Of a stretch of DNA of 64,000 bases, positions 3,370 through 5,950 are shown piece after piece. The first letter of the stretch is position 1, and each line of letters starts with the position of its first letter. The position numbers were made by a program, and so were the translations under genes. The stretch comes from an uncultured Acidimicrobiales bacterium (lineage in GTDB: Bacteria > Actinomycetota > Acidimicrobiia > Acidimicrobiales > CATQHL01). The notes under the pieces are model-generated. The model did no database searches. It saw only the letters and a list, made by a program, of their open reading frames with translations, and was not told where the DNA came from. The stretch is taken from positions 1,966,780 to 2,030,779 of the forward strand of contig CATQHL010000001.1 in the NCBI GenBank assembly GCA_958295925.1. The letters run 5' to 3'.

Positions 3370-3598
3370 TTCATTGCTGACGTGAGGCAATGCTACGATT
3401 TTGCTTGGGCATTTTGCCCGCATCATCCGAGAGCGCCGTCCGCACATCGTCTCAATGGAGAACGTGAACGCATCCGGACGACCCGCTCCATGTCGCCCTG
3501 ACGCCCTCGGAGTTGAACATGCGCCGTATCCGCTCGTCTAGCCCTGGCGGTTCCTGGAAGGAATGGCCTCCATCGCTCATCAGCGAATTGACTACGCG

Positions 3599-3640
3599 TT
3601 GGTTGAGCCGAGAAAGCCGATTATAGTATGAGACTCGGCT
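3599..3640 (+). promoter_or_regulatory. Candidate promoter with overlapping inverted repeat upstream of GHKL-nuclease gene
   Basis: TTGGTT (3599-3604) - 17 nt - TATAGT (3622-3627); inverted repeat AGCCGAG (3606-3612) / CTCGGCT (3634-3640) brackets the -10. Confidence 0.5.
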
Positions 3641-3710
3641 AAATACATTGGAAATGCAGTTCCAGTGTTACTTGCTCAACAGATAGGAAATTCAATCAAC
3701 GAGGCAATTT

Positions 3711-5777
3711 ATGGCAGAAGACAGCAAGTACAGGATGAACATCAGCCTGAACGTCCTTAATCATCTTGGTCTTAACCTCTACAGCAACACCTCGGCGGTG
3801 CTCGCCGAGGTGATCGCCAACGCTTGGGACGCCGACGCGTCAGAGGTGAGGGTGGATTTCGACAGCGATCAGCAGAAAATCACGATTTCCGACAACGGCA
3901 CGGGGATGGACAGGGACGCCGTCAACGACAAGTACCTGTGCGTTGGATACCAGAGACGCCAAGCCGAGGGCACGACAACGCGGGGAGGGCGAAAGCCGAT
4001 GGGGCGAAAGGGCATAGGCAAGCTGTCGCTGTTTTCCATAGCGGAAGGATTCTCCGTCTACTCCAGGATGGCAGGAGAGGATGGGGAGGCGTTCCGCCTT
4101 GATGCGGCGGAGATCAAGCAGGCAACCTCCTCGGAGGATCCTTCCTTGTCGAAGCCCTACAGGCCAGCAACGTTGCCGTTCTACGACAAAGTGGCGGACC
4201 ATGGCACGATCATTGAAATCTCCAGCTTGAAGAAAAATCTCACCGCTGCTTCGATAAAAGGTCTAAGAAAACAGGTTGCCCGAAGGTTCGGACTGGTTGC
4301 TGACCAACATCAGTTCAAGATTGTTGTCAACGGCGTAGTTGTCACACTCGCCGACCGCGACTACTTTCATAAGGCGCAGTTCTTGTATCGATACGGCGAC
4401 TACGACTATTCCAAACACTGCGTAAATCTCGACAAGAAAGATGATGGCGAATCCGAAAGTTTCAGGCGGTCAAACGAATTAAACGATAGCTGCGATCAGG
4501 GTGAGACAAAGGTATTGGATGATGAAGAACTTAGCGTCAGTGGATGGATAGCCGTAGCCCACAAGTCAAACGATCTTGACGATGGTCAAGACAACGAGGA
4601 CAATCTGAACAAGGTCACAATTGTTGTGCGCGGCAAAGTGGCTCAGGAAGACATACTTCACGAGTTTCGACTAGGCGGTATTATCACAAAATTTTTCTTC
4701 GGGGAGATACATGCGGACTTTCTAGACAGCGACAACTCTGCATATGGCGATTGTGCGACTTCAAGCAGGCAAAGAATCAAAGAGGACGACCCACGCTATC
4801 TTGCTCTCAAGGCGTTTCTAAACAAGGAGTTGCGCCACCTCTGGGTCAAGACCGACAAGCTGAAGGAAGCAAAAGGTCTGGCAGTGGCGCGAGAAATACA
4901 TCCCAACATCGGATTGTGGTTTAATGACCTAAACCCAGATCACAAGAATGCGGCAAATAGGCTCTTTGCGAGAATCAACAAGCTGCCACTCGACGACGAG
5001 GGGGAAAGACGCCGTTTGTTCATCAGCAGCATCCTCGCCTTTGAGAGCCTGAGTTTTCGCAACTTGTTGCACAGGCTCGACAACATCTCGGTGGAAAATC
5101 TGCCCGCGCTAAGAAAGGTCTTCCTTCAGCTGGACGACCTGGAGGCGAGCGCGTACTACTCCACCGTTAAGCAGAGGCTGGAGGTAATCGGGAAGTTAGC
5201 ACATTTTGCGGAAGAAAACGCTTTAGAAAGAGCAATCCAGGAACACTTGTATGATCACCTGTGGTTACTGGACCCGACGTGGGAACGAATTCCTCACACT
5301 GCTCGTATGGAGACTGCAATTCGTAAGATATTTGATTCGGATAGCGAGTCTATGTCAAATGAACGATTGGATATTTACTACGCAACTACGGCAGGTAAGC
5401 ACTTGATAATCGAGTTGAAGAGGCCAGATCGAGTTCTGAGGGCCGCGAAATTGGCTGATCAGATTGATAGATATCGCTCGAAAGCTGTAAGTGCTATTTA
5501 TTCGGCAGGAAAAGACAATCCACTTGAGTTTATTTGTGTCATAGGTAAGCCTCTACGAGACTGGAACGAGCTTGGTGGGAGGAAGAAAGCTGCTGAGATA
5601 TTAAGAGCAGTCGATGCCCGCGTGGTAACTTACGAAGAACTCATTGTGAATGCTCAGGAGCAATACAAGGAGTACATTGCCCGCTCGCAGGCTGTGGGCA
5701 GAATCTACGAACTGATTCAGAGCGTGGAGAAAGACGACCTTGCGAAGATGAGACCCGAGGTGGCCAACTCGCAATAG
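3711..5777 (+). CDS. GHKL (HSP90/MORC-like) ATPase with C-terminal PD-(D/E)XK/Shedu-like nuclease region; putative defence protein
   Basis: N-box EVIANAWDADA, DNGTGMD, GRKGIGKLSLF; C-terminal ERLDIYYATTAGKHLIIELKRPDRV resembling D...ExK nuclease core; ribosome-binding-like GAGG before ATG. Confidence 0.8.
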   Translation: MAEDSKYRMNISLNVLNHLGLNLYSNTSAVLAEVIANAWDADASEVRVDFDSDQQKITISDNGTGMDRDAVNDKYLCVGYQRRQAEGTTTRGGRKPMGRKGIGKLSLFSIAEGFSVYSRMAGEDGEAFRLDAAEIKQATSSEDPSLSKPYRPATLPFYDKVADHGTIIEISSLKKNLTAASIKGLRKQVARRFGLVADQHQFKIVVNGVVVTLADRDYFHKAQFLYRYGDYDYSKHCVNLDKKDDGESESFRRSNELNDSCDQGETKVLDDEELSVSGWIAVAHKSNDLDDGQDNEDNLNKVTIVVRGKVAQEDILHEFRLGGIITKFFFGEIHADFLDSDNSAYGDCATSSRQRIKEDDPRYLALKAFLNKELRHLWVKTDKLKEAKGLAVAREIHPNIGLWFNDLNPDHKNAANRLFARINKLPLDDEGERRRLFISSILAFESLSFRNLLHRLDNISVENLPALRKVFLQLDDLEASAYYSTVKQRLEVIGKLAHFAEENALERAIQEHLYDHLWLLDPTWERIPHTARMETAIRKIFDSDSESMSNERLDIYYATTAGKHLIIELKRPDRVLRAAKLADQIDRYRSKAVSAIYSAGKDNPLEFICVIGKPLRDWNELGGRKKAAEILRAVDARVVTYEELIVNAQEQYKEYIARSQAVGRIYELIQSVEKDDLAKMRPEVANSQ

Positions 5778-5829
5778 CGGCAGCCACAGTCACTGGCCCT
5801 CAAGGTCTCGGCTGCTGACGTTGCGTGGA

Positions 5830-5950
5830 GGTTGGGGCCTGCCAGAGAGTCGGTCCAAGCTGGAAGTCTGGGCCTGCTGGGGAGTCGGTCCAAGCTGGAG
5901 GTTGGGGCTAGCTGAAGAGTCGGCCCAAACTGGATGTCGGGGCCTATTTG
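5830..5950. repeat. 35-bp tandem repeat, ~3.5 copies
   Basis: GGTTGGGGCCTGCCAGAGAGTCGGTCCAAGCTGGA (5830-5864), variants at 5865-5899 and 5900-5934, partial at 5935; runs into the enoyl-CoA hydratase stop codon. Confidence 0.92.

Follow-up and report, generated by a model that had tools for sequence, protein, structure and literature searches.

A BbrUII/HgiDII-type restriction endonuclease gene of chimeric make-up beside a methyltransferase pseudogene in an uncultured Acidimicrobiales bacterium

Among the housekeeping genes of an uncultured Acidimicrobiales bacterium lies an intact open reading frame for a GHKL ATPase joined to a nuclease-like region, and no intact methyltransferase ORF lies next to it in the window (the whole stretch of 64,000 nucleotides analysed here). 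Is this a single-gene defence effector by origin, as the sequence-only reading of the locus had proposed, or what is left of a larger system, and if the latter, how does the host live with it?

The nuclease and its family

The ORF (3711-5777, plus strand, 688 aa) starts with ATG and has no internal stops. The gene and the element preceding it are arranged as follows, relatives being denoted here and below by locus (L) numbers.

3701..3704, plus strand: Shine-Dalgarno-like GAGG, 6 nt before the nuclease ATG, sequence ACGAGGCAATTTATGG
3711..4895, plus strand: N-terminal part of the nuclease gene, residues 1-395, GHKL ATPase and S5/transducer domain, belonging to the L038 branch
4911..5777, plus strand: C-terminal part of the nuclease gene, residues ~400-688, helical linker and PD-(D/E)XK domain, belonging to the L029/L050/Cenarchaeum branch

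The ATPase domain is recognised by Pfam (HATPase_c_3; score 64.8 bits, cut-off 25). The GHKL motifs quoted in the sequence-only reading are present, and E33, N37, D61, G63, G65, G101, G103 and K104 are invariant among 86 aligned family members; in the same alignment E506, E534, D554 and E568-x-K570 of the nuclease domain are invariant or nearly so. Of the 88 alignment columns in which the other members reach a conservation of 95% or more, the protein retains 87, including E33, N37, D61, K104, E506, D554, E568 and K570. In a full-length AlphaFold model (pLDDT 86) the ATPase and transducer region is matched by TRAP1/Hsp90 and MORC2 (Foldseek). Modelling of residues 420-688 (pLDDT 84), a check suggested along with the original proposal of a Shedu-like PD-(D/E)XK core, gave a confident C-terminal alpha/beta domain, in which residues ~141-240 of the fragment have a pLDDT near or above 90. 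Its top PDB match is the Bacillus cereus Shedu nuclease (8ti9/8ti8; Foldseek probability 0.97, E 1.7e-3), with low TM-scores of 0.22-0.35 of the query, and Cap4 ranks lower. The Pfam Shedu profile (SduA_C) matches residues 505-577 with 17.1 bits, below its cut-off of 27, and is matched at E<=0.01 by two of eight family members. The predicted nuclease domain appears to resemble Shedu most, though its Shedu Pfam score is below the cut-off, and the proposal is borne out to that extent.

In the earlier label of MORC/GHKL the first half is imprecise. A scan for the MORC-specific GhXhhpXXRhl motif found no copy of it in the focal protein and none among 86 members of the family, and the name paraMORC3 is thus to be preferred: all features of that group (GHKL, S5 and a restriction-endonuclease fold with E-D-ExK, without the MORC motif) are present (Iyer, Abhiman and Aravind 2008, PMC2292703). 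The NCBIfam equivalog for the BbrUII/HgiDII restriction enzyme (NF050001) is matched with 693.8 bits (cut-off 550) over residues 7-671, that is, profile positions 1-658 of 659, and PADLOC assigns the protein to REase_II (E 3e-89). The HgiDII and BbrUII nucleases cut GTCGAC, and the biochemically characterised members of the family are site-specific Type II enzymes. The methyltransferase M.HgiDII methylates GTCGAC (PMC5867850).

Relatives of this nuclease usually come with such a partner. In 64 of the 79 nearest genome loci the nuclease gene has an m5C methyltransferase no more than 500 nt away, and 54 of these 64 give a strong match to the partner methyltransferase profile; 13 loci have none adjacent, eight of which come from a single Cenarchaeum sp. 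genome, and two are cut by contig ends. The methyltransferase also adjoins the nuclease gene in five of the six plasmid relatives that were inspected, as well as in a P2-like phage relative, whose nuclease gene is named ParaMORC3 in the phage record, and it stands directly upstream in all six nearest N-terminal relatives. The family assignment, this neighbourhood of homologues and the methyltransferase remains described below led us to reject the natively solitary effector of the sequence-only reading.

The uncultured Cenarchaeum sp. genome (G041, OY282369.1) holds eight nuclease paralogues (L040, L043, L053, L054, L065, L067, L078 and L080), only one of which has an intact HgiDII-type methyltransferase within 5 kb; other methyltransferase relatives in this genome are weak, partial or contain stops. 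No methyltransferase wreck was detected next to the nuclease in the other solitary relatives (the Cenarchaeum copies, L052, L072 and L099). The nucleases of L050, L075, L076, L084, L097, L098, L105 and L107 are paired with methyltransferases outside the HgiDII-type clade, which suggests partner exchange in this restriction-modification (R-M) family.

An acquired cassette with a decayed methyltransferase

The nuclease gene is AT-richer than its surroundings, as had been noticed from the sequence, with 50.7% GC against 63.3% for the window and a GC3 of 0.60 against 0.73-0.84 in two neighbours. Its flanks encode housekeeping functions (YchF, hemH, crotonase, NfuA-like, dxs, TldD-like). The order YchF, hemH, a conserved gene of ~1.1 kb, crotonase, NfuA-like, dxs, TldD-like is found without the cassette in five genomes of the same family, and a sixth related genome has YchF, hemH, NfuA-like and dxs in that order. 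In the window the slot of the ~1.1 kb gene is occupied by the nuclease and the methyltransferase wreck. Low GC and the cassette-free gene order of related genomes support horizontal acquisition of an R-M cassette into a housekeeping block, in agreement with the earlier suggestion; vertical inheritance as a housekeeping gene was rejected, the gene being absent from this position in the related genomes. The gene between hemH and crotonase (~300 aa) is 74-86% conserved in L120-L125, is missing at window positions 3372-5944, and has only partial matches elsewhere in the focal genome.

Directly upstream of the nuclease, a tblastn search that took methyltransferases from the closest relatives as queries found three collinear fragments at 3401-3718, which the sequence-only reading had overlooked, as it had the composite make-up of the nuclease itself.

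3401..3466, plus strand: pseudogene fragment 1, LLGHFARIIRERRPHIVSMENV, with motif VI 'ENV', corresponding to residues 145-166 of the enzyme of the L038 relative
3468..3584, plus strand: pseudogene fragment 2, residues 245-283, in a different reading frame, with ~78 residues deleted before it
3587..3718, plus strand: pseudogene fragment 3, residues 341-384, with motif X 'IGNAVPV' and ~57 residues deleted before it

Fragment 1 is 55-64% identical over 22 aa (E 0.006 with the L038 methyltransferase, 5.8e-4 with that of L044), fragment 2 is 56% identical over 39 aa (E 1.5e-10) and fragment 3 is 55% identical over 44 aa (E 3.7e-8). The 5' part of the gene is lost, with nothing left before residue ~145; two internal deletions remove about 234 and 171 nt, and an in-frame TGA interrupts fragment 3 at 3629-3631. 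Fragment 3 overlaps the start of the nuclease gene, and the same overlap is seen in intact operons. In their similarity to other methyltransferases the remaining pieces roughly equal intact clade members, and they retain 21 of 23 conserved columns. As the fragments are no more substituted than their intact relatives, the loss is recent, and the intactness of the nuclease alone is then no proof of selection.

Two branches in one nuclease

Comparison along the protein points to a double ancestry. Up to residue ~380 the focal protein is nearer the L038 group than the L029/L050 group in nearly every window of the alignment, and from residue ~400 the relation reverses sharply; over residues 441-500, for example, identity is 28-38% to the L038 group and 60-70% to the L029/L050 group. 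A tree of residues 7-390 places the protein with the L038 group (100/100), and grouping it there with L029 and Cenarchaeum is rejected by the AU test (127 lnL units). The tree of residues 405-676 joins it to L029/L050 and Cenarchaeum (100/97); placement with the L038 group is 17.6 lnL units worse (AU p=0.038), a test that is only moderately strong because the L038 group is long-branched in this part. The junction is located near the end of the transducer region. By these comparisons the nuclease is a chimera of two family branches, residues 1 to ~395 deriving from one and residues from ~405 on from the other. The closest methyltransferase to the pseudogene is that of L038 (55.8% over 104 positions), which ties the wreck to the N-terminal part and indicates another source for the C-terminal part.

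A draft mis-join or error as the source of the wreck or of the mosaic is very improbable, even for a draft genome of three contigs (94% complete, 2.9% contamination), as the lesions are large deletions and a stop, not single-base frameshifts, and as the genes on either side of the cassette follow, in the 2.55 Mb contig, the order seen in related genomes, which makes a join between genomes at the mosaic junction unlikely.

Host protection and the fate of the cassette

The explanation that we favour, and to which we give an even chance of being right, is that a Type II R-M cassette was acquired, its methyltransferase recently decayed, and the host DNA is shielded by an unlinked methyltransferase. 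The nuclease would be the restriction endonuclease of a BbrUII/HgiDII-type (paraMORC3) cassette whose linked m5C methyltransferase decayed to a pseudogene while the chimeric nuclease ORF stayed intact. ATP binding would close the GHKL dimer around DNA; judging by the family and by VcSduA, such a clamp step is most likely. The clamped dimer would then license cleavage of unmethylated invading DNA by the C-terminal PD-(D/E)XK domain, at GTCGAC as in characterised members or, after the domain swap, at a related site. ATP-gated cleavage of this kind is plausible by analogy with VcSduA, whose mutants support it (PMC12137116). The host would survive because an unlinked methyltransferase covers the nuclease's sites.

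Avoidance of the site does not seem to offer self-protection. In 170 kb of the genome GTCGAC occurs 59 times against 75 expected, within the range of other palindromes, and as the site is not avoided, an active enzyme of this specificity would need protection. The 3.2 Mb genome carries a large methyltransferase load: five m5C methyltransferases, plus about 19 places that score above the N6_N4_Mtase cut-off. The m5C enzymes are 21-37% identical to the partner methyltransferases, which are 43-55% identical among themselves, so none is orthologous to the lost enzyme; a methyltransferase of the cognate clade was not found elsewhere in the genome, which at 94% completeness makes the absence less than absolute. 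The focal gene accordingly belongs to the class of solitary restriction genes described by Ershova et al., as a full-length restriction gene with a corrupted methyltransferase adjacent and no orthologous methyltransferase found elsewhere.

The best candidate for an unlinked protector that we can propose is the m5C methyltransferase at 17.2-18.4 kb of contig C1 of the focal genome (G000), within locus L016. With the methyltransferase adjacent to the L050 nuclease it shares 55% identity over 387 aa, a stretch that takes in the recognition region, and the two are sisters in the tree (support 100); the L050 nuclease in turn has the highest identity to the C-terminal part of the focal protein (56%). 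Against this assignment, the enzyme sits in an M-Vsr-GHKL cluster of its own, and with five m5C and about 19 N4/N6 methyltransferase matches in the genome, protection is plausible but cannot be assigned to any one of them. That cluster (G000:C1:17193-21400; L016:9161-13416) encodes the m5C methyltransferase, a Vsr endonuclease and an 808-aa protein with an N-terminal GHKL domain and a histidine-kinase-like C-terminal domain. A 28% match at C1:19265, considered as a second nuclease copy, is this GHKL protein and was dismissed. Another resident enzyme, L020 (G000:C2:1591145-1592173), was likewise rejected as cognate methyltransferase, as it forms a long branch outside the whole partner clade with at most 37% identity to the tested partners. 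Its m5C methyltransferase frame has 395 codons and no ATG, GTG or TTG before motif I; either it uses an unusual start codon or the gene is damaged.

Either another enzyme shields the genome, then, or the nuclease is switched off or used differently. That the locus is a silent relic we regard as unlikely, though deserving of serious weight: loss of the 5' part of the methyltransferase would have removed the promoter, the nuclease would be unexpressed or an inactive chimera, and the ORF would be intact merely because the loss is recent. The little-changed pseudogene fragments fit such recent decay, a promoter scan found no sigma-70-like site upstream of the ORF, and non-expression is a standard explanation for solitary restriction enzymes (PMC3488263). 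The scan is weak evidence in a little-known taxon, and the Shine-Dalgarno-like element and the complete set of catalytic residues speak against a relic. The methyltransferase (~1152 nt) has at least four lesions and the nuclease (2064 nt, 1.8 times as long) none where about seven would be expected, giving a Poisson P of about 8e-4 if lesions are independent and rates equal; the count leans against a freely decaying nuclease, though one complex rearrangement could explain several of the lesions.

An improbable alternative is a Shedu-like stand-alone nuclease, so tightly gated and independent of a methyltransferase that loss of the partner was harmless. The protein falls within the methyltransferase-paired equivalog, its nearest N-terminal relatives are all paired, its Shedu Pfam score is sub-threshold and the family members of known biochemistry are site-specific Type II enzymes, all of which argue against it. 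In its favour are the Shedu match of the predicted nuclease domain, the 13 of 79 members without an adjacent methyltransferase (eight from the Cenarchaeum sp. genome), the solitary paraMORC3 genes already noted in 2008 (PMC2292703), and the example of VcSduA. This GHKL-type Shedu protein of Vibrio cholerae WASA-1, whose antiphage activity was demonstrated in 2025, is laid out in the same way and restricts phage in single-gene form, for which it requires both an ATPase and a nuclease residue, E27A and K557A each abolishing restriction (PMC12137116). We rate as similarly improbable that the domain exchange altered specificity or gating, so that the methyltransferase became useless and rotted, with an unrelated resident methyltransferase or the nuclease's own ATP gate now giving protection.

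To return to the decayed cassette with an unlinked protector, the locus is not a new system; it belongs to a known restriction-enzyme family and has the paraMORC3 architecture described in 2008. With BbrUII/HgiDII it shares the full-length match and domain order, and the nuclease start that overlaps the end of an upstream m5C methyltransferase frame; it differs in that this frame is a pseudogene, so that an adjacent functional methyltransferase is missing, and in the two-branch nuclease. Compared with other stand-alone paraMORC3 members, its solitary state has a visible cause, the decay of the linked methyltransferase. VcSduA likewise combines GHKL ATPase and Shedu-like nuclease in one protein at a single-gene locus, but it has a recognised DUF4263 and acts without a methyltransferase, whereas the focal protein falls below the SduA_C cut-off and stems from an R-M pair. 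Ershova et al. (2012) counted 11 Type II solitary restriction genes beside corrupted methyltransferases in 1040 genomes; those methyltransferases were frameshifted, truncated or prematurely stopped, some possibly through sequencing errors (PMC3488263), whereas the present methyltransferase has lost most of its length by deletion and stands beside a mosaic nuclease. Solitary genes are believed to arise only in small part through the decay of whole systems (PMC4176335). What is new about the locus is the extent of the wreck, the two-branch origin of the nuclease and a candidate for an unlinked protector.

Should the nuclease prove silent, this would be an ordinary R-M cassette in the process of decay. 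If the domain exchange did change specificity or gating, the locus would show a Type II R-M pair caught in the course of becoming a single-gene, Shedu-like defence nuclease. With a methyltransferase wreck still visible beside an intact recombinant nuclease, the locus offers a testable case of the passage from an R-M pair to single-gene defence and connects the BbrUII/HgiDII restriction enzymes with the GHKL-Shedu antiphage proteins.
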